From Clostridia bacterium (GTDB taxonomy: Bacteria; Bacillota; Clostridia; Christensenellales; Borkfalkiaceae), in assembly GCA_021204625.1 (NCBI GenBank), contig JAJPZA010000059.1:1-63675 (forward strand): DNA of 63,675 nt, given 5' to 3'. Below are positions 49,386-60,897 of this stretch, in pieces. How positions within the stretch are numbered: position 1 is the first letter of the stretch; every line of letters begins with the position of its first letter. Made by a program: the position numbers and the translations under genes. The notes under the pieces were generated by a model. That model was not told where the DNA came from. It searched no databases and saw only the letters and a program-made list of their open reading frames with translations.

Positions 49386-49413
49386 CAAAAACGCCTCTCA
49401 ATCCGGGCGTTTC
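49386..49413 (-). terminator. Minus-strand intrinsic terminator
   Basis: Minus strand AAACGCCcggattgagaGGCGTTTTTGC. Confidence 0.7.
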
Positions 49414-49464
49414 TCAGCCCAAACGCAAAATTTCTCAAAATTGCGGGCCGCCGAACCTCCGTTT

Positions 49465-49579
49465 ACGAACTGTTGTTCGTACTTTGGCCCATTCATGTAC
49501 TTTAATACACTGCCGCAGTAAAGTGCTTTTCCGGATGGTCCGGCGAAGCCGGGTTTTACGGACAGTTGTCCCGGAATCC
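49465..49579. repeat. Dispersed intergenic structured element, copy B
   Basis: Aligns with 5117-5234; hairpins CGAACtgttGTTCG, ACTTTA...TAAAGT, CCGGCgaagCCGG, GGACagttGTCC. Confidence 0.75.
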
Positions 49580-49717
49580 ATTATGAACCGTCCGGGTCTG
49601 GCGTCCGGACAAAAAGGCGCCGGAACGGGGAGCGGAGGGGCTAGCTTCTCTTCCAGCGGCGGAAGACGCCGTCACGGCAATGCACAAAACCAGCGCTGTA
49701 ATTTCCCTGAACTTCAT
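49556..49717 (-). CDS. Small ORF (53 aa) with N-terminal signal-peptide-like segment
   Basis: MKFREITALVLCIAVTASSAAGREASPSAPRSGAFLSGRQTRTVHNGFRDNCP; preceded by TTGACA-17-TAAACT. Confidence 0.4.
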   Translation of the reverse strand: MKFREITALVLCIAVTASSAAGREASPSAPRSGAFLSGRQTRTVHNGFRDNCP

Positions 49718-49738
49718 AAAACACACCTGTATGCATAC

Positions 49739-49767
49739 AGTTTAGCCTTTGCTTAGAGGGATGTCAA
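49739..49767 (-). promoter_or_regulatory. Putative promoter TTGACA-17-TAAACT (minus strand)
   Basis: Plus-strand TGTCAA 49762-49767 and AGTTTA 49739-49744. Confidence 0.6.
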
Positions 49768-49863
49768 CAGCACTGCATTGCTCTCATGTCTTGCCATTTG
49801 CCTGCAGAAATGGTACAATGCCCGTAGAAATGAAAGGCCCCTCAGGGGCGGGAGATGCTGCAT

Positions 49864-50709
49864 ATGTCCGTAATGCTTCAGAAGGATAAGAAAACGGGTG
49901 AGACTCTCGTATATGAGACAACCAATTACAGAGACAAGAAAACCGGCAAGTCCGGCACAAAGAAGGAGCTTTTAGGGAGGCTGTATACTTCGTCGCTGGA
50001 GCAGGATATAGATGATGTGAGCACGATGTTTGATGAGGCTCCCCATGTCTGGGGAGACATCTCGGCGCTGTATGAAAAGACGGTTTCCGGGGCTGAAGAA
50101 CTGACGCATATGCTGGACAAGACGAAGGGAGTGTACACGCTGGCAGATTTTTTGCCTCTCCTTGAGAAGTTCATGGAGATAAGCGCAGAAAAGGATGAGG
50201 CTTTCAACAAGCTTGGCGTTTACACCAAGGAGATTGTAATGAAGGCGGCGGAGGTTGCGCGGGATAATAAGTTATATAAGCAGGATTTGGCAACTGTCCG
50301 GGAAGGCAAAACCAGGGACGAATGGAACTCCACATGGATGGCGAAGGAAATTGAGACATACGAAAAACTTGAACAAAACAATGCGGAATTAAAGGAAATC
50401 TCGGAAAAGCTTATTGCCGAACAGAAAGACACCATCGAGTTTTATAAGAAGTATGTTGATGAACTCAATGAATCGCGGGAAATCAAGCAGAATCTTATAG
50501 ACAACCAGGATAAACTCATTGCTAATCAGGACAATATTATAAGCAGTCATATTGGGATTATAAACAGTATTCTGGACAGTCTCAGCAAGTATGAAGATGT
50601 ATCCGAGTGGGATTTTGTAAAAGAGGATAACGAAATCTGGCTAGCGGCGCTGAAACAGTCTAAATCAAGGGATGCCGTGGATGACTCCTCTGTGGAAGAT
50701 TCAGACTGA
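49864..50709 (+). CDS. Coiled-coil protein, tandem paralog family member 1
   Basis: MSVMLQKDKKTGETLVYETTNYRDKKTGKS N-terminus; LSKYEDVSEWD C-terminus. Confidence 0.8.
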   Translation: MSVMLQKDKKTGETLVYETTNYRDKKTGKSGTKKELLGRLYTSSLEQDIDDVSTMFDEAPHVWGDISALYEKTVSGAEELTHMLDKTKGVYTLADFLPLLEKFMEISAEKDEAFNKLGVYTKEIVMKAAEVARDNKLYKQDLATVREGKTRDEWNSTWMAKEIETYEKLEQNNAELKEISEKLIAEQKDTIEFYKKYVDELNESREIKQNLIDNQDKLIANQDNIISSHIGIINSILDSLSKYEDVSEWDFVKEDNEIWLAALKQSKSRDAVDDSSVEDSD

Positions 50710-50781
50710 GGCGTATTGGATTCAGCAAGCAATCAGAAAGGGGAGTGTGGTGCAGACAGCAGCCCGCTCCCGCCGTTAAGC

Positions 50782-50795
50782 GCCGCATATGCGGC
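50782..50795. repeat. Perfect 14-bp CATATG-centred palindrome
   Basis: GCCGCATATGCGGC. Confidence 0.8.
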
Positions 50796-50812
50796 AATCA
50801 AGAGGGATTGAT

Positions 50813-51526
50813 ATGGCTATCAAACTGGAAAAGGATAAAATCACTGGCGAGACTCTCGTATATGAGGTGACAAGCGTTACGGACAAGAGCACCGGCAAGT
50901 CAGCTGAACAGAGAGTGCTTAAGGGCCGGCTGCATCCCTTCACCGAGGAAGAGGACCATGAGGCCATAAGCGGGCTGTTTGCTGTTGCTGACGGCAAAGA
51001 GCCCGTCATGCTGGAAGATCTGGACCGCGCGCACGAGAACGCTACGGAAGCCATAAGAGACGTGGTTGAATCGGTTTCGCCGGATGAGGACGTGTACTCG
51101 TGGCTTGAAGTAAGTGCTATGATGAAAGAGATTGCGGATGCCGTCATAGTCAAGGACAACAGTTACAGAACGCTTAAAACCGCATACAAGGACCTTGTGG
51201 CGTATGCCGCGGACGAGGTCCGCAGGAATGAGACGCTGGGAAAAGAGAACAGCAAGCTTGCAAAGAGCAATGAGAAGCTCAGGAAGAGGGCAGAGGACCG
51301 GCAAAGGGAAGGGCTTGAAAATCTTCTGGAGTACAAGCAGATGATGGATAAAATTGAGTCATACAAGGAGATTATCTCCAAAAGCGAACAGCTTGAGGAT
51401 ACTATGAAAGAGGTTATAAGCAAACAGGGCGAACTCATTAATGCACTGGTGAAAGGATACAATGATCTCAAAAGCCATCTCAGCAGGTATGAGGATGTGT
51501 CCGGTTGGGATGATGTGCAGGAATAA
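50813..51526 (+). CDS. Coiled-coil protein, tandem paralog family member 2
   Basis: MAIKLEKDKITGETLVYEVTSVTDKSTGKS; LSRYEDVSGWDDV. Confidence 0.8.
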   Translation: MAIKLEKDKITGETLVYEVTSVTDKSTGKSAEQRVLKGRLHPFTEEEDHEAISGLFAVADGKEPVMLEDLDRAHENATEAIRDVVESVSPDEDVYSWLEVSAMMKEIADAVIVKDNSYRTLKTAYKDLVAYAADEVRRNETLGKENSKLAKSNEKLRKRAEDRQREGLENLLEYKQMMDKIESYKEIISKSEQLEDTMKEVISKQGELINALVKGYNDLKSHLSRYEDVSGWDDVQE

Positions 51527-51574
51527 CCGGAAGAATCGGCATATTCCGTTTGAGTTGCAGTCAAGGAGGATATT

Positions 51575-51952
51575 ATGGCTATAGAGCTGCAGCCGGATTT
51601 TGAGACAGGGGAGACCCTCGTGGTCAAGACGCGCACGCATAAGAATAAGGAAACAGGCGAAGTCACTATAGACTGCGAGCTGCTGGGAGGATTGTATCCC
51701 ATTGCAGAGGATACGGAGAAGAACAGGGCGGACTTCGCAGACAAGGCGCAGCTGCAAAGAATGGCTCATGACCTTGAAGCGTATGAAAAGGCATTGGCCG
51801 GGAGCGAAGAGATAAGCGGCCGGCAGCAGCGGTTTATAATCGAGCAGGAAAAGGTCATTATGAAACTTAAAAAGGGCGTGAAGGAGCTCATTTCGCGTCT
51901 GAGCAAGTATGAGGAAGTGTCCAGGTGGAAAGACCTGGAGAATATCAGATAG
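51575..51952 (+). CDS. Coiled-coil protein, tandem paralog family member 3 (short)
   Basis: MAIELQPDFETGETLVVKTRTHKNKETGEV; LSKYEEVSRWKDL. Confidence 0.78.
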   Translation: MAIELQPDFETGETLVVKTRTHKNKETGEVTIDCELLGGLYPIAEDTEKNRADFADKAQLQRMAHDLEAYEKALAGSEEISGRQQRFIIEQEKVIMKLKKGVKELISRLSKYEEVSRWKDLENIR

Positions 51953-52245
51953 CCTCTTCCCCTGTGGATTTCTGCATGATGCAGGCTCTCATTTGCCTCG
52001 GACGGAGGCGGAGCAAGACCGGATTTAAGGCCGCATTTCGGGCAAGTTTCGCAACAGTTTTAGACAAAGCGTTGATTATCTTTGTGATTTTGGGTGTGAT
52101 TTTAGTGAAAAATCGCATCATATATGCTTGCAAAGCCGCCAGATAGGAAAAAACAGTTGCAATAATCAGGGCGATGGTATAAAATAAGCGCATAGCTTTT
52201 ATAGAGAAACAGGTGACCGCTTCATGGGGTCACATCGGAGAGACT

Positions 52246-52596
52246 ATGTCTGTCAACACACACAACGGATTGGGTAAAATTTCAATAGAGGATCAGGCCA
52301 TCGCGAAGGTGGTCAAGTCTGTTGCGCTTGAGTGCTACGGCATAGTAGACACCGTCTCAAGAGGAATCAAGGATTCCGTGTGGGAGCTTCTCAGAAGACA
52401 GCCGGATGGCAAGGGCGTTAAGGTGGTCACGTCCGGAGACAGGATTTACATAACCGTCAACGTCATCCTAAAGTACGGCGTTTCTTTAATGGCAGTGGCT
52501 GAATCTTTGAAGGCTAGCATCAAGTACAGCGTTGAGAGATTTACAGGCATGATCGTGGACACGGTCAACGTCAACATTGTTGGCGTGAAGCTTTAA
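52246..52596 (+). CDS. Asp23/Gls24 family envelope stress protein
   Basis: GKISIEDQAIAKVVKSVALECYGIVD; located between rpmB and a DAK2-domain gene. Confidence 0.92.
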   Translation: MSVNTHNGLGKISIEDQAIAKVVKSVALECYGIVDTVSRGIKDSVWELLRRQPDGKGVKVVTSGDRIYITVNVILKYGVSLMAVAESLKASIKYSVERFTGMIVDTVNVNIVGVKL

Positions 52597-52689: not shown

Positions 52690-54348
52690 ATGCAGAAAAC
52701 GGTAAACAGCGCCGAATTCAGAAAAATGATTATATCCGGGTCAAGGCTGCTTGATCAGAACCGGTCCAAGATCGATTCCCTCAACGTCTTCCCGGTTCCT
52801 GACGGTGACACAGGAACAAATATGTCACTTACGCTTCAGTCCGCGGTGAAGGAGATGGGAGCTGTCTCATCGCAGCAGTTCGCGGACATATGCAACGCAG
52901 TATCCAAAGGAGCGCTTCGCGGCGCGCGCGGAAATTCCGGCGTCATCTCCTCCCAGATATTCCGCGGCATATGCTCATCGCTGAAGGACACGAAGGAATC
53001 GTTCACAACCAAGAATTTCGCAAAGGCCCTTGAGGAAGGGACCAAGGTGGCGTACGGTGCTGTGTCCGTCCCCAAGGAAGGGACGATTCTCACGGTCGTA
53101 AGAAGCATGAGCGAGGCGGCCGGAAAGCTTGCGGCAAAATACAAGGATTTCGACGAGTTCTTAAAGGCGGTCATTGAGGTCGGGGACGAAGCCCTCGCCC
53201 ATACGCCTGAGCTTCTGCCCGTGCTCAAAAAGGCGGGCGTCGTGGATTCCGGCGGCGTCGGTCTCATGACCATAATGAGAGGCTTCCTCGCGGCTTTCAC
53301 AGAGGATACCGGAAATATTGAGGACATACCCACGGACGCAAGCGCGGCCAATGCCAAAAGCGACGAGGATGTCTTCGGAGACAATTCAGAGGTCATTAAC
53401 CTGGATCTCGGCGAGATAGAGTTCGCATACTGCACGGAGTTCTTCGTAATCCATATCAAGCCCTCAACCACTATGGCGGACATAGACAGGCTCAAGGAAA
53501 AGCTCATGGGCATAGGTGATTCCGTCATATGCATAGGCGATTTGGAGCTCATAAAAGTCCATGTGCACACGAACACCCCCGGAAGGGCGCTCGGGTTTGC
53601 CCTGGAGCTCGGCGAGCTGGACCGCATAAAGATCGAGAACATGCTTGAGGAGAACAGGGAAATCAAGGCCAAGATGGAGGCCGAGAAGAAAGAGATGGGC
53701 ATGCTGGCCATCTGCTCCGGAAAGGGCCTCGAGGAGATCTTCAAGGACCTCATGTGCGACAGGGTCATGGAGGGCGGCCAGACAATGAACCCTTCGGCCC
53801 AGGACATAGCGTATGCAGTGCAGAAGATAAACGCGGCAAACGTCTTCGTATTCCCCAATAACGGCAACATAATACTTGCGGCGGAGCAGGCAAAGGAACT
53901 GGTTACCAACCGCACAATACACGTAATCCCCACAAAGAGCATCCCGCAGGGCTTTGCGGCTGCCCTTGCGTTCAACCCCGAAGAATCCGTCTCCGAGAAC
54001 AAGACCAACATGGTGCACGCCATAGACAACGTCCTTTCCGGACAGGTCACGTACGCCGTGCGCAACACGAAGATGAACGGCTTCAGCCTCAAGGAAGGGG
54101 ACATCATAGCCCTGGACAACAAGAAGATACTTGCCAAGGGAGCGGACATAGAGGAGACCACGCTCAAGCTCATAAAGCATCTCAAGAACGATGACCACGA
54201 GATGATAACCCTCTACTACGGCAACGGCGTGAAGGAAGAGGACGCCAACGACCTCATGGATAAGGTCCAGCAGGAGTTCCCGGACTGCGACGTGGACTGC
54301 CATTACGGCGGCCAGCCCGTTTATTACTACATCGTCTCCCTTGAGTGA
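52690..54348 (+). CDS. fakA: DAK2/DegV-associated fatty acid kinase FakA-like
   Basis: IDSLNVFPVPDGDTGTNMSLTLQSA; GARGNSGVISSQIFRG. Confidence 0.93.
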   Translation: MQKTVNSAEFRKMIISGSRLLDQNRSKIDSLNVFPVPDGDTGTNMSLTLQSAVKEMGAVSSQQFADICNAVSKGALRGARGNSGVISSQIFRGICSSLKDTKESFTTKNFAKALEEGTKVAYGAVSVPKEGTILTVVRSMSEAAGKLAAKYKDFDEFLKAVIEVGDEALAHTPELLPVLKKAGVVDSGGVGLMTIMRGFLAAFTEDTGNIEDIPTDASAANAKSDEDVFGDNSEVINLDLGEIEFAYCTEFFVIHIKPSTTMADIDRLKEKLMGIGDSVICIGDLELIKVHVHTNTPGRALGFALELGELDRIKIENMLEENREIKAKMEAEKKEMGMLAICSGKGLEEIFKDLMCDRVMEGGQTMNPSAQDIAYAVQKINAANVFVFPNNGNIILAAEQAKELVTNRTIHVIPTKSIPQGFAAALAFNPEESVSENKTNMVHAIDNVLSGQVTYAVRNTKMNGFSLKEGDIIALDNKKILAKGADIEETTLKLIKHLKNDDHEMITLYYGNGVKEEDANDLMDKVQQEFPDCDVDCHYGGQPVYYYIVSLE

Positions 54349-54707: not shown

Positions 54708-56714
54708 ATGCAGATAACATCCTTGAAGCTTATATCAGACAAGAGAGAGAAAGATTTCAATAAGCTGGGCATATACACGGTGGAAGACCTTGCCCGGCAT
54801 TTTCCGAAGGACTACCTGGACCTTCGCAACATAACGCCCATATCCCAGGTGTATCACAATGACGTGGTGCTCACCTGCGGGGAAATTTTGACCGTGGAAT
54901 GCAACAAGTACGCGAGGCGTCCGTACGTCAAGGCCAGGTGCAGGCAGGGGGACTGCCTGTTCACTGCCATATGGTTCAACCAGGTGTATGTGGCGGACAA
55001 GCTCCATCCCGGGGAGTTTCTCTTCTACGGCCGTGTCCAGAACAAGTTCGGCCTGGAGCTCACCATAGTGAACCCCACTTTTGAGCCTGCGGAAAGCAAG
55101 TCCAAACTGCAGGGCATAATTCCTGTATATTCCCTTTCCGGCAAGCTTACGCAGAAGCTCATGAGATATGAGCTCTCGCAGGCTCTGGACAAGCTCCAGC
55201 TGCTTTCCTGCATCCCGTATGACATCCAGCGCAAGTATGAGCTCATAAAGCTCAAGGACGCGTACAGGAAGGTGCATTTCCCGGAGACGGTGGAGGATTA
55301 CCAGCAGGGCGCGAACAGGATAGCCCTGGAGGAATACTTCCTGCTAATCTCGGCGTTCAAGGTAATAAAGGGCGGTTCGGATGACGCCCGTCTCAACCAG
55401 TACCCTGTTACAAGGGCAGATCTGGACTCCTTCATTTCCAGATTTCCGTTCACCTTCACTCCCGGGCAGAAGGGAGCCGTGGAGGACATCTGGAACAATC
55501 TCAAGGGCCCGCACAGGATGAACAGGCTCATACAGGGAGACGTAGGGTCCGGCAAGACCGCGGTTGCAATGGCAGCCATATATATGGCGGTGAAGTCCGG
55601 ATACCAGGCCGCAATGCTGGCCCCCACGGAAGTGCTTGCGCAGCAGAACGCATCCGTGCTAAAGACCTACTTTCCGGACTGCAATGTGGTATGCCTCACC
55701 GGTTCCATGACAGCCAGGGAAAAGAAGCTCACTAAGGCTCTTATCCAGGGCGGCATGGCCCACATAGTGTGCGGCACGCACGCCATCCTGCAGGAGGATG
55801 TGGTTTTTGCGAACCTTTCCCTCGTTGTATGCGACGAGCAGCAGCGTTTCGGCGTGGCCCAGAGGGCATCGCTTACGGACAAGGGCGAGAGCTGCGACGT
55901 CATCGTCATGTCGGCAACCCCCATTCCCAGAACGCTCAACCTTATATTCTACGGAGACCTGGACGTAACCACCATAAAGGACAAGCCCAGGGACCGCCAG
56001 GAGATCTCCACATCCATAATTCCGGAGCGCAAGTACACGGACATGCTCCGCTATGTCTCGGAGCAGTCCAGGCTCGGCTGCCAGACCTATTTCGTCTGCC
56101 CCAAGATAGAGGAGGATGAAGAGGGCACCATCATGTCCGTAACGGAGCTGTACGAGGATCTCAAGGCCAAGATGCCGGACGTGCGCCTCGCCCTCCTTCA
56201 CGGCAAGATGAAGGAGAAGGAGAAGAACGCCATCATGGATGACTTCAAGGCCAAGAAGTATGACTGCCTTGTCTCAACCACGGTCATAGAAGTGGGCGTG
56301 GACGTTCCGGACGCAACCATCATGATCATATACAATGCAGAGCGTTTCGGCCTCTCGCAGCTGCACCAGCTCCGCGGGCGCGTGGGGCGCAGCTCCAGAA
56401 AGAGCTACTGCTTCCTTCTCATGGGCGTTGAATCCGAAGAGGCCAGACGGCGCCTCACGGTCCTCAAAACCTGCTCGGACGGCTTCCGCATAGCGGAGGA
56501 GGACCTCAAGATCCGCGGAGGCGGGGATTTTCTCGGGACCCGCCAGTCCGGCCGCATGCTCTCCGAGATCAAGAACCTCAGGTTCCCCGTCGAGACCGTC
56601 TTCACCGCCAAGGCCCTCGTGGACGAAGCCTTCGCCTCTACCGCAGACCTCACTGCACTCAAGAAGCTTGCCGCCGGCAAGTACGAGAGCCTCAAGGACG
56701 TAGTCCTCAACTGA
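54708..56714 (+). CDS. recG: ATP-dependent DNA helicase RecG
   Basis: RLIQGDVGSGKTAVAMAAIYMA; TEVLAQQ; ATPIPRTLNLIFYGDLDVTTI; HQLRGRVGRS. Confidence 0.97.
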   Translation: MQITSLKLISDKREKDFNKLGIYTVEDLARHFPKDYLDLRNITPISQVYHNDVVLTCGEILTVECNKYARRPYVKARCRQGDCLFTAIWFNQVYVADKLHPGEFLFYGRVQNKFGLELTIVNPTFEPAESKSKLQGIIPVYSLSGKLTQKLMRYELSQALDKLQLLSCIPYDIQRKYELIKLKDAYRKVHFPETVEDYQQGANRIALEEYFLLISAFKVIKGGSDDARLNQYPVTRADLDSFISRFPFTFTPGQKGAVEDIWNNLKGPHRMNRLIQGDVGSGKTAVAMAAIYMAVKSGYQAAMLAPTEVLAQQNASVLKTYFPDCNVVCLTGSMTAREKKLTKALIQGGMAHIVCGTHAILQEDVVFANLSLVVCDEQQRFGVAQRASLTDKGESCDVIVMSATPIPRTLNLIFYGDLDVTTIKDKPRDRQEISTSIIPERKYTDMLRYVSEQSRLGCQTYFVCPKIEEDEEGTIMSVTELYEDLKAKMPDVRLALLHGKMKEKEKNAIMDDFKAKKYDCLVSTTVIEVGVDVPDATIMIIYNAERFGLSQLHQLRGRVGRSSRKSYCFLLMGVESEEARRRLTVLKTCSDGFRIAEEDLKIRGGGDFLGTRQSGRMLSEIKNLRFPVETVFTAKALVDEAFASTADLTALKKLAAGKYESLKDVVLN

Positions 56715-56837: not shown

Positions 56838-57068
56838 ATAAGCTTACAAAGGCTAAGAGGGAGATAATCTTGTGATATAGTTTTTATGTAAAAAGCATGT
56901 CATAGTAGATTTAATGAATTTCAATGGATGTACTAAAACATAATCTAATATAATCAATCAATATCTTGTATTTCAATGTGAAATTTGCAGATTTTATGCA
57001 AATTCTATTGTCAAGTCTATTTTATTGTGCTATCATGTTTGTATATTATAAAAAGGTGGGTAAAGAAA

Positions 57069-58328
57069 ATGCTTCTTGAGTTTTCATGTTCAAATCATAA
57101 GTCAATAAGAAAGAAGGTATTGTTCTCTGCCATTGCTACTCCGGATACTTCAAATGAGGAGAATCTGATTCCCTATGGCAAAGACCGTATTTTGAAGTCT
57201 GCTGTGATTTATGGAGCTAATGGGTCAGGCAAGACTAACCTGCTTAGTGCAATTTCTTATGTTAAAATGATGGTAATGAACAGTATTGGCCATCAGCCTA
57301 ACGAGAAGATTAATCAAATGCCCCACAAACTGGAGGGATTTGATAAAGACAGCACGTATGCAATTCAGTTTACAATCAAGGATATAAGGTATGCATACGG
57401 ATTTACTTTGACGAACAGGATTGTGACTGATGAGTATCTTTATTATTTTCCAAAGGGGAGACAGGTATGTGTATTTGAGCGCAATCAAGATGGAGTTATT
57501 CCAGGAAACAGCTTCCGTAACGCATTTAATACATGCAAAGATGTATTGAAGCCCAATCGCCTTATGCTTTCCTGTGCTGCCAATTTCAGCTCAGTGAAAG
57601 AGACCGAAGATGCATACAGATTCTTTGCTGAAGACCTTGTAATATATAATCCTGACAATCAGAATGACTGGATGAATTACTCGCTGTATCAGATTGCTGA
57701 AAATAAAGTGCTTAAGAATACCATCCTTGATTTCATGCGCAGCCTGGATATTAATATCCGTGATATCAAGGTCAAAATAAACAGGACTAATTTTAAGCAT
57801 ACTGGTATCTCGCTGGCACCGCCTGTTTTCTCGGAGGATTTCAATAAGAGCGTGTTGAACAAAGACAAGGATTCAATTACTGCCAGAATTGTGTATGATG
57901 AGTTTGAAACAGATTTGCTGTATGAAGAATCATCCGGAATCCAGAAGCTGGTTAGCCTGCTTTGCCCTTTGATAGATGTTATTACTAACGGCAAGATAAT
58001 GCTATGTGACGAACTTGAATCAGGGCTGCATGAATCCTTGGTGTATGGTCTGATAAAGGAATTCATGAAATCAAATCATAACGGTCAGCAAGCCCAGATT
58101 TTCTTTACAGCTCATGAAACGGCTTTTATTGATACGAATCTCTTCAGAAGAGATCAGATCTGGTTTACTGAGATGAAGAAGGAAGGCCGTGAAACGGATT
58201 TGTATTCTCTGGCAGAGCTGAAGAACATACGCAAAGAAGAGAATTTTGGGAGAGGCTATATTTCAGGCAGATATGGCGCCATCCCCATGCTGAATATTGA
58301 TTTTGCCAATCTTGTGTCGAGTATGTAA
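57069..58328 (+). CDS. AAA-family ATPase (COG1106/AAA_21, RloA/AbiLi-like)
   Basis: VIYGANGSGKTNLLSAISYV Walker A; IMLCDELESGLHESL; FFTAHETAFIDTNLFRRDQIWF; GRYGAIPML C-terminus. Confidence 0.88.
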   Translation: MLLEFSCSNHKSIRKKVLFSAIATPDTSNEENLIPYGKDRILKSAVIYGANGSGKTNLLSAISYVKMMVMNSIGHQPNEKINQMPHKLEGFDKDSTYAIQFTIKDIRYAYGFTLTNRIVTDEYLYYFPKGRQVCVFERNQDGVIPGNSFRNAFNTCKDVLKPNRLMLSCAANFSSVKETEDAYRFFAEDLVIYNPDNQNDWMNYSLYQIAENKVLKNTILDFMRSLDINIRDIKVKINRTNFKHTGISLAPPVFSEDFNKSVLNKDKDSITARIVYDEFETDLLYEESSGIQKLVSLLCPLIDVITNGKIMLCDELESGLHESLVYGLIKEFMKSNHNGQQAQIFFTAHETAFIDTNLFRRDQIWFTEMKKEGRETDLYSLAELKNIRKEENFGRGYISGRYGAIPMLNIDFANLVSSM

Positions 58329-58341
58329 GGGGATGAAGGCT

Positions 58342-59055
58342 ATGGCAGAAAGAGATTTATCATTGACAGGCGTACAGGAAAACTCCAAAGAACATCCTGA
58401 TATCCATCCTCTTCATTTCAGCTTGGCGGACATAAGGAAGCACTTTGATGAAAGCATTGCATTAACAAAACAGCAGTTTGAGATTGCAGACACCTTGATT
58501 GCTGAAGAGCAGATTGAAAAAGCCAAAACAATCTGGAGATCCCAAGTGGTCTTCTTTGAGGGAGTCCTGGATTTCTATTTGCATGAAATCTGTAAATATG
58601 CCTTGTACAAGATCTATGTCGGCGATTGGAACCAGACTGAGAAATATAAGGCTATTACCATTCCTATCCGTGTTGTACAGGATGCCATTAATTCCAGAGA
58701 TGGTGCAGAGTGGTTTTTTGACTTCGTTAATCTCAAGTACAGCAACAGCGTTTTTTTATCTCCAGAAGATATAAAGGATGTCTTGAACATGAGTGGCGTT
58801 GAGTATGTAAAGGTCATGCACAAGGTGTTTCCCACTGTTACTGAGAATGAAGCAAAAAAGCAGGGTGACAAGATTCTTAGAGAACAGTATTCAAGAAGGA
58901 ATCAGATAGCTCATCAAATGGACCGTAGCCATGCATCAGCTGAACAGGCCGATATCACAAAAGAGTATGTAGAACAGTATGCAGAGAATATCATCAAGAT
59001 TGCAGATGCCGTGCAGTGCTTGATTTTGGAGAAAGACAAAGAGCCTTCGTGCTAG
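58342..59055 (+). CDS. HEPN-domain protein (MAE_28990-like), putative RNase effector
   Basis: QYSRRNQIAHQMDRS contains R-x4-H (RNQIAH, 58897-58914); helical; start 13 nt after ATPase stop. Confidence 0.75.
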   Translation: MAERDLSLTGVQENSKEHPDIHPLHFSLADIRKHFDESIALTKQQFEIADTLIAEEQIEKAKTIWRSQVVFFEGVLDFYLHEICKYALYKIYVGDWNQTEKYKAITIPIRVVQDAINSRDGAEWFFDFVNLKYSNSVFLSPEDIKDVLNMSGVEYVKVMHKVFPTVTENEAKKQGDKILREQYSRRNQIAHQMDRSHASAEQADITKEYVEQYAENIIKIADAVQCLILEKDKEPSC

Positions 59056-59080
59056 GTTCAGACAGTATCAGTAAACAAGC

Positions 59081-59153
59081 ATCCAAGCCGTTTTCTTCGG
59101 GAAACGGCTTTTTCCCACTCAAATCAATTTCCGGCCTGTTTTTCCTGCTCAAA
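59081..59153 (+). repeat. 73-bp direct repeat (downstream copy); includes terminator of the ATPase-HEPN operon
   Basis: ATCCAAGCCGTTTTCTTCGGGAAACGGCTTTTTCCCACTCAA...GCTCAAA. Confidence 0.85.
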
Positions 59154-59669
59154 CCTGCTGTCTCCGGGGCAAATAATGCATATATACAGGCATATTTCCA
59201 TTAAAAAAATTTCACTTAAAATATTTTAATGAAAAATTCCAGCTAAAATCAGGCACAATTACTTGCACAGACAAATAAAAGCACGCAGCCGTTCAAGTGG
59301 GTGGCAGATGGAAGTGATTATTTCTGCAACATGCGGTTTGGGAGATGGCAGGTTGTCTCAAAATGCAGGAAAGATATCCCGCCGGGATTACGAAAAATCC
59401 TGCGTAATGGGATAATGCAGGCATAGAGCTGAGGCCGTCCCAGCAAATCCATGAGATTTTACATCAGTCATCTGATCTTTCCTTATTTATTGCAGTCACT
59501 GCCGTCCCGAATCCCCGGGACGGCAATGTCTTTGTACAGGCCCGTTCATCCGGCATGACCTGCAGGCTCCCGGCGGCATAGTGCAAATGGCTGTACTGCT
59601 GCATTCCCGGCCACGGAATTGCAGGCACTTTTTCATGCTTTTTCCCGGATGGCCGCAGCTTCCCCTGTG

Positions 59670-59698
59670 TTGCATACAGGCCGCCTGGGGAGTATAAT
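59670..59698 (+). promoter_or_regulatory. Putative promoter TTGCAT-17-TATAAT
   Basis: TTGCAT 59670-59675, TATAAT 59693-59698. Confidence 0.6.
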
Positions 59699-59723
59699 GC
59701 AAGGCAGGCAAAGGAGACACAGC

Positions 59724-60569
59724 ATGGCTATAAAGGCAGTGGCGCAGTTCCAGCTGGGCACGGTGCTGAACAACAGAAAGCAGGCAATGGACACCTTCCG
59801 GCTTATAAAGGGCGCCGGGTATGAAGGGATAGAGCTCTGCTATTTCATGATTCATCCCACATCCGTATTTTACAAAATCGGCATGAGGGCATCCGGCACG
59901 CCAATAGGCCGCGGCGGATGGATGGACTGGCCTTCCCTTGTGAAGGACTCCGGCCTCAAGGTTGTTTCCGTGCACCAAAACGTGAAGGCCCTTTCAAAGC
60001 ATCTGGAGAAGACTGCGGAGGAGACTCTATCCCTTGGCGCCCGGCGCGTTACCTTAAGCAATTCCCACACGGATTACTCCAGCGAAGGCGCCGTCGCCGC
60101 TCTTGCAGACTGGCTCAGCGAGACAGGCGGGAAGCTTCATGCATACGGCCTGGAGCTCATATACCACAACCACAACGCAGAGTTCCTGCACCCCGTGAAG
60201 GGCAAGACGGCATACCAGCTTCTAATAGAGCAGACAGACCCTGCCCTTGTGGGCTTTGAGCTGGACGGCTTCTGGGCTGCAGACGCCGGAATGGACATCC
60301 TGCAGGTCATGGACATGCTTGGATCCCGTCTCAAGCTGTACCATATCACAGACAGGGGCAGCACCCGCAAGGGAGCGGCTGCCACGCCAATCATCCAATA
60401 CATGGGAGCGGAGCTCGGGAATGGGAACATGAACCTGGAGCCAATGATACGCAAGGCCCTGTGCCTTGGCGTGGAGGCCATTATCCTTGAAACCCACAGA
60501 GGATGGGAGAACGGGGATCCGGTGAAGAGCATGCAGACCAGCGGGGAATATCTCGCTAAGTTCCTCTAG
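59724..60569 (+). CDS. Sugar phosphate isomerase/epimerase (xylose isomerase-like TIM barrel)
   Basis: AMDTFRLIKGAGYEGIELCYF; LELIYHNHNAEF; GFELDGFWAADAGMD; EAIILETHRGWENGDPVKSMQ. Confidence 0.88.
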   Translation: MAIKAVAQFQLGTVLNNRKQAMDTFRLIKGAGYEGIELCYFMIHPTSVFYKIGMRASGTPIGRGGWMDWPSLVKDSGLKVVSVHQNVKALSKHLEKTAEETLSLGARRVTLSNSHTDYSSEGAVAALADWLSETGGKLHAYGLELIYHNHNAEFLHPVKGKTAYQLLIEQTDPALVGFELDGFWAADAGMDILQVMDMLGSRLKLYHITDRGSTRKGAAATPIIQYMGAELGNGNMNLEPMIRKALCLGVEAIILETHRGWENGDPVKSMQTSGEYLAKFL

Positions 60570-60897
60570 CCGCATACAGTGCAAACAGAGAATTTCATGG
60601 CGCCAGGACTCCGGTTCCGGCGCCTTTTCACCAGCACATTTTACAGGCACAACAATAGATTTGTACTATGCATAAAATGCGCGTATATATGGCAGATATT
60701 GGGTGCTGACGCTGCAAACTTGAGATTTTCCCGCCCAAAGACAGCGGAAAAACAAGGTAAAATTCGCCCAAATATTCCCGCTCAAAAAACTCTGTCTGAT
60801 TTTTCCGGATTTTTTGCGAAATGAACTTACAGTTAATGAACATTCGTTTATGCTAAAATCCATTCACAAAACCGGACCTGGCTGGCGGGGAGGGAAT

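Follow-up and report, generated by a model that had tools for sequence, protein, structure and literature searches.

IS911 encodes a small protein, OrfA, whose N-terminal and zipper regions are also those of the transposase, and this protein regulates transposition (PMC2909936). In multi-ORF IS66 elements, the roles of the extra ORFs have been described as unknown and probably regulatory (PMC3281130). We surveyed OrfA-like proteins by scanning GTDB contigs with P0004, a solo OrfA-like ORF from the genome studied here, and three of its relatives, and found 223 relatives. Architectures were counted in 81 loci, 80 of them from these relatives and one from a viral contig. The N-terminal domain was fused to transposases of ~535 aa in 13 of the 81 loci. 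Standalone genes encode ~98–133 aa, consisting of the N-domain, a basic linker and a short coiled coil, and in 42 cases an ORF of at least 300 aa starts −41 to +47 nt after the stop codon. Downstream ORFs that were scanned belonged to IS66 (19/20) or ISL3 (1/20), and the fused controls to DDE_Tnp_1 (3/3); L128 is IS1634 by NCBIfam. Examples of standalone proteins are L055, L074 and L111 beside IS66 and L048/L124 beside ISL3. No Pfam or NCBIfam model matched the standalone proteins. The ~50-aa domain (Y-x-Y...R-x-L-x-G-x-x-D-P-x-T-G), either fused in IS1634 or encoded upstream of IS66/ISL3, is apparently uncurated, and DDE families that are not related to each other would use it as a module.

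The survey also revealed several unusual loci. OrfA-like genes number at least four in the MAG Bacillota MAG87_KBP, each on a contig of its own (L062, L065, L071, L089); tblastn found no IS66, ISL3 or IS1634 transposase in the available flank of L065, L071 and L089, and the flank of L062 extends only 55 bp downstream. At positions 1477–2598 of L014 (G053:C68; same as L053), an OrfA-like ORF continues in frame into a KDPG-aldolase-like ORF (373 aa, counted from a GTG) with no intervening stop; the two are either truly fused or neighbouring genes that share a frame. Of the IS1634 transposase genes of G181, L049 is split over two reading frames and L050 runs off the contig end. On a 149-kb viral contig (L131, IMGVR_UViG_3300024999_000040), a transposase-like ORF of 556 aa comes after an OrfA-like gene, and this is either an IS within a phage genome or a mis-binned contig.

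Here, we analysed a stretch of 63,675 nt (the window) from an uncultured gut Clostridia bacterium of the Borkfalkiaceae (contig JAJPZA010000059.1). In the window, rpmB (encoding L28; 49105–49287, − strand) and asp23 (52246–52596, + strand) are separated by 2959 bp (2.96 kb), and asp23 is followed by fakA (52690–54348) and recG (54708–56714). rpmB (−) and asp23 (+) are divergent neighbours in 34 congeners, and the gap between them is 225–378 bp in all 34 of these distinct genomes and 136–243 bp in seven other families of the order. When 28 intergenic regions of congeners and the contig ends of the sister species G054 were compared with the window, the inserted segment came out at 49400–52150; these edges are approximate, and the exact boundaries, and with them any target-site duplication, are blurred by divergence. 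Sequence comparable to that of congeners extends from rpmB to about 49400 and begins again near 52150 with the asp23 promoter, where a promoter-like site (52157–52185, +) is intact at the right edge of the insertion and matches congeners. Thus, the inserted cluster lies between two intact promoter regions. A candidate promoter of its own (TTGCCA-17-TACAAT with TG before the second hexamer; 49791–49819, +) comes from a consensus scan only. No inverted repeats were found to bracket the approximately placed ends, tblastn with 22 transposases found no transposase-like sequence anywhere in the window, and Rfam gave no match within the insertion. Over its full length, FakA shares 78–82% identity with the FakA of 14 congeners. 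The contig (C32) is therefore native, and the idea of a contaminant was rejected. The left part of the insertion also holds a 56-aa ORF (49556–49726, −) with a signal-peptide-like start (MKFREITALVLCIAVTASSAAG), possibly a truncated gene.

Further downstream, an AbiL-like pair is located at 56985–59055 (+). Its ATPase matches PADLOC AbiLi at E 6e-82, and its second member is HEPN_RiboL-PSP-like and has a motif of the RxxxxH type. In G054, no DNA match to 56838–60889 was found, and this stretch is therefore probably another accessory island. The genome assembly (G000) is 2.84 Mb versus 1.1–2.4 Mb in congeners, with 5.35% contamination, and represents either a truly larger genome or a mixed bin.

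The insertion between rpmB and asp23 contains three tandem ORFs, all intact and on the + strand: P0001 (281 aa; 49864–50709), P0002 (237 aa; 50813–51526) and P0003 (125 aa; 51575–51952). Each is preceded by a plausible Shine-Dalgarno sequence (GGGAG, AGAGGG and AGGAGG, respectively). P0001 consists of an N-module (49864–50001), a helical middle, a C-signature (LSKYEDVSEWDFV; 50581–50619) and an acidic tail, and P0002 has the same architecture (N-module, 50813–50950; C-signature LSRYEDVSGWDDV, 51479–51517). In P0003, a short coiled coil comes directly after the N-module (51575–51712), the most diverged of the three, and leads to the C-signature (LSKYEEVSRWKDL; 51899–51937). The C-signatures were established by DNA repeat comparison and a shuffle test. 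P0001 and P0002 are homologous at E 4e-18. Pairwise Smith-Waterman scores of the N-modules (residues 1–48) were 130, 94 and 79 versus shuffle maxima of 46–55, and those of the C-terminal ~46 aa were 81, 63 and 79 versus 42–44, or 50–61 when heptads were preserved. For every pair, none of 1000 shuffles, plain or heptad-preserving, reached the scores of either end. This means that the similarity is more than low-complexity coiled coil, a limitation that an earlier note, made from the sequence alone, had raised against its own description of three consecutive genes with a common N-terminal module and C-terminal signature; the description itself holds. Traces of duplication are also visible in the DNA: 56 nt at the three starts are 61–75% identical, and 32 nt of the three C-signatures are 81% identical. 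The middles, which the note had called variable, do differ in length and sequence, but those of P0001 and P0002 are still marginally alignable (score 92, reached by 0/1000 shuffles and 1/1000 heptad shuffles) and most of the middle is absent from P0003. P0001 and P0002 have a hydrophobic period of 3.5, and the AlphaFold2 model of P0002 contains a three-stranded sheet (residues 2–40) and helices at residues 47–58, 65–87 and 97–229.

As judged from its sequence, the N-module is the three-stranded β N-terminal domain of IS1634-family transposases, which is also found in standalone IS66-associated OrfA. An HMM built from 56 standalone OrfA N-domains matched P0001 with 30.4 bits and P0002 with 22.4 bits, gap-free from residue 1, and the best of 3000 shuffles reached 12.2 bits. 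An IS1634-only HMM agreed (29.3 and 24.4 bits, respectively). Reciprocally, an HMM of the cluster N-modules matched OrfA/IS1634 domains with up to 32.6 bits (median 20), the best of 2399 shuffles being 8.3. When 393 genomes of the class were searched with the cluster profile, the only N-domain matches outside the cluster were IS1634 N-termini (E 3e-5). P0003 alone was below the reach of the N-domain HMM, and the domain relationship is shown directly for P0001 and P0002 and through these paralogues only for P0003. This counts against an IS-accessory origin, as does the C-signature, which has no counterpart in OrfA proteins. The N-module query located a fourth place in the same genome, namely P0004, a solo OrfA-like ORF of 123 aa flanked on C221 by secF-like and recJ genes. 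IS1634 transposases carried by plasmids of Carnobacterium and Aliarcobacter match P0004 at their N-termini. In the AlphaFold2 predictions, P0004 and P0002 alike have these three strands and, after them, a long helix. The genome also has intact IS1634-type transposases with a related N-domain. Furthermore, solo OrfA-like genes lie among ordinary genes in several other genomes, and such genes, P0004 included, are plausible intermediates.

Other searches gave little. Foldseek with the P0004 model against PDB and BFVD returned nothing below E 0.001, and an AP2-domain match (7wq5, E 1.9) was too weak to serve as evidence. Fold comparison by VIA-align gave generic rows only (Z≤5.4), and the sheet was not identified. 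With the three cluster proteins, Pfam, NCBIfam, PHROGs and PADLOC gave weak coiled-coil matches only, and no transposase model of Pfam or NCBIfam matched; DUF6809 (E 0.009 to P0002) falls in a helix and is below the cut-off. tblastn with P0001 against plasmids and phages found nothing, and neither did scans of viral and GTDB contigs with P0001, P0002 or A1. Class-level coiled-coil matches (L174/L175) were judged to be chance.

How close are the cluster proteins to known proteins? Like IS66-associated standalone OrfA, they have the N-domain at residue 1 and a coiled coil after it, are encoded by separate small ORFs, and P0003 is nearly equal in size. In contrast to OrfA, they are acidic, carry the C-signature, occur as three paralogues and have no adjoining transposase; the gene directly downstream is asp23. 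The basic linker of OrfA (DGRNRK / GKRGRKKK) is absent, and so is its DPETGEIIPT-GRxGRP sequence. The net charge after residue 46 is −25 in P0001, −16 in P0002 and +2 in P0003, with +2.4 for the OrfA family linker, and the whole-protein charge is −21, −16 and −4, respectively, versus +5 in P0004. In OrfA, the domain is followed by a DPETGEIIPT strand and a basic patch; both are missing here, so that the relationship rests on ~40 residues. The absence of the basic linker and of a downstream transposase sets the cluster outside the OrfA family on two features; its descent from the same domain family nevertheless appears to stand. With IS1634 transposases (NCBIfam NF033559, Pfam DDE_Tnp_1) they have in common the N-terminal domain of ~45 aa, but not the catalytic DDE domain. 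P0004 and its homologue in the congener G053 are likewise solo genes for an N-domain plus coiled coil without a transposase; P0004, however, is single copy, still has the basic linker and scores 115 bits against the full OrfA profile. The resemblance to IS911/IS3 OrfA is a functional analogy only: these are also small proteins with N-terminal and coiled-coil (zipper) parts of a transposase, but IS3 OrfA has a helix-turn-helix instead of this β domain.

In the genus (93 genomes), a profile built from the three proteins matched only the window's own genome and G054, and no further match of the whole architecture turned up in 301 genomes of the family and 393 of the class. The G054 match is a P0003 homologue just upstream of asp23 that is broken off at the contig end (C132), and G054 rpmB lies at the end of another contig (C27), which runs out 149 bp past the rpmB start. 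It follows that the remainder of the G054 copy is unassembled. P0003 and its G054 homologue are 43% identical (pN 0.38, pS 0.68, pN/pS 0.56), whereas the flanking asp23, fakA and recG are 90.5%, 94.2% and 91.3% identical, respectively, with pN of 0.04–0.06 and pS of 0.45–0.52. Since pS is higher for P0003 than for the flanks, the G054 gene may be a paralogue and not the orthologue. Between the N-modules of P0001 and P0002, pN was 0.24 and pS 0.68 (pN/pS 0.36), and pN is thus below pS in both comparisons. The substitution pattern shows a cluster that, so far as sequences tell, changes fast but under constraint. The claim of a diversifying paralogue family inserted between rpmB and asp23 is borne out by the enlarged gap and by this divergence.

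Several explanations of these genes have to be weighed. The cluster could be IS debris, that is, leftover accessory ORFs that are decaying and of no use to the cell. Its restriction to two species of the genus and very fast divergence would agree with decay, and so would the G054 copy, which ends just short of the VSxW part of the C-signature. Debris is nevertheless improbable in our judgement, because the three long frames are intact, with good ribosome sites and conserved ends, pN is clearly below pS in the valid comparisons, and a double duplication that keeps both ends is unusual for debris. We give somewhat less credit still to coiled-coil adaptors or scaffolds used by the host, in which the fixed ends would be docking modules and the middles variable spacers. 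The earlier note had thought of exchangeable proteins of this kind, and conserved ends around variable helical middles with long predicted helices do fit them. Nothing else in support was found: there is no partner, no conserved neighbour and no wider distribution, and the better documented home of the N-module is in transposition proteins.

It is very unlikely that these are phage or defence accessory genes. They are lineage-restricted and fast-evolving, and the AbiL-like ATPase/HEPN pair is only ~5 kb downstream, beyond recG, but housekeeping genes lie in between. Moreover, the search for phage or defence relatives gave no convincing match in PHROGs, PADLOC, phages or viral contigs; the one PADLOC match to a known anti-phage defence protein is to the coiled-coil region of LmuB (E 0.004). 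No more credible is convergence of the N-module and the IS1634/OrfA domain on a small β meander. The likeness spans only ~40 residues, and the family-invariant Y15 is replaced by Leu in P0001, P0002 and P0003, but the alignment is gap-free from residue 1 with an equal register in both directions, the scores are about 2–4 times those of the best shuffle, and the architecture of N-domain plus coiled coil is equal. The note's statement that no known domain could be recognised is superseded for the N-module. Placement in a characterised family by HMM, which the note had named as its refutation, holds by half: the domain has been placed, but no curated family covers the small proteins.

We regard it as well supported, and highly probable, that the cluster derives from accessory proteins of the IS1634/IS66 type. 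The fuller reading, that an orphaned OrfA-type insertion-sequence accessory protein has expanded in tandem in this one lineage, is one we favour at slightly better than even chances. Each protein would have kept the three-stranded β domain of IS1634 transposases and OrfA, followed by a coiled coil, and the source type would be the standalone OrfA of ~100–130 aa that accompanies many clostridial elements of the IS66 type and one of the ISL3 type. The coiled coil may form homo- or hetero-oligomers that present the β modules. The β module might be a protein-protein part or a former DNA-end-recognition part, and the C-signature a lineage-specific contact. Because the basic linker is lost and the proteins are acidic, we propose that binding to a partner protein is likelier than DNA binding. 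Possible partners would be oligomers of transposase or OrfA; alternatively, the C-signature might contact a new host partner. The likeliest single function may be that mixed oligomers regulate or poison transposition, by analogy with the action of IS911 OrfA on OrfAB; control of transposition is nonetheless a tentative assignment, held well short of even odds. It is less likely again, and speculative, that the host captured the β domain, stripped its basic linker, and made it acidic and multiplied it, so that the proteins would be trans-dominant inhibitors of transposases using that domain. This same doubtful reading would include a small β domain that is exchangeable among DDE transposase families, fused in IS1634 and acting in trans in IS66/ISL3.

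The finding would make it possible to track, in what had seemed an orphan family, how accessory genes of mobile elements become free-standing. The uncurated domain common to IS1634, IS66 and ISL3 would make many OrfA-type genes nameable at once, and its occurrence as a fused and an in-trans pair would allow a direct test of the role of the domain in transposition.
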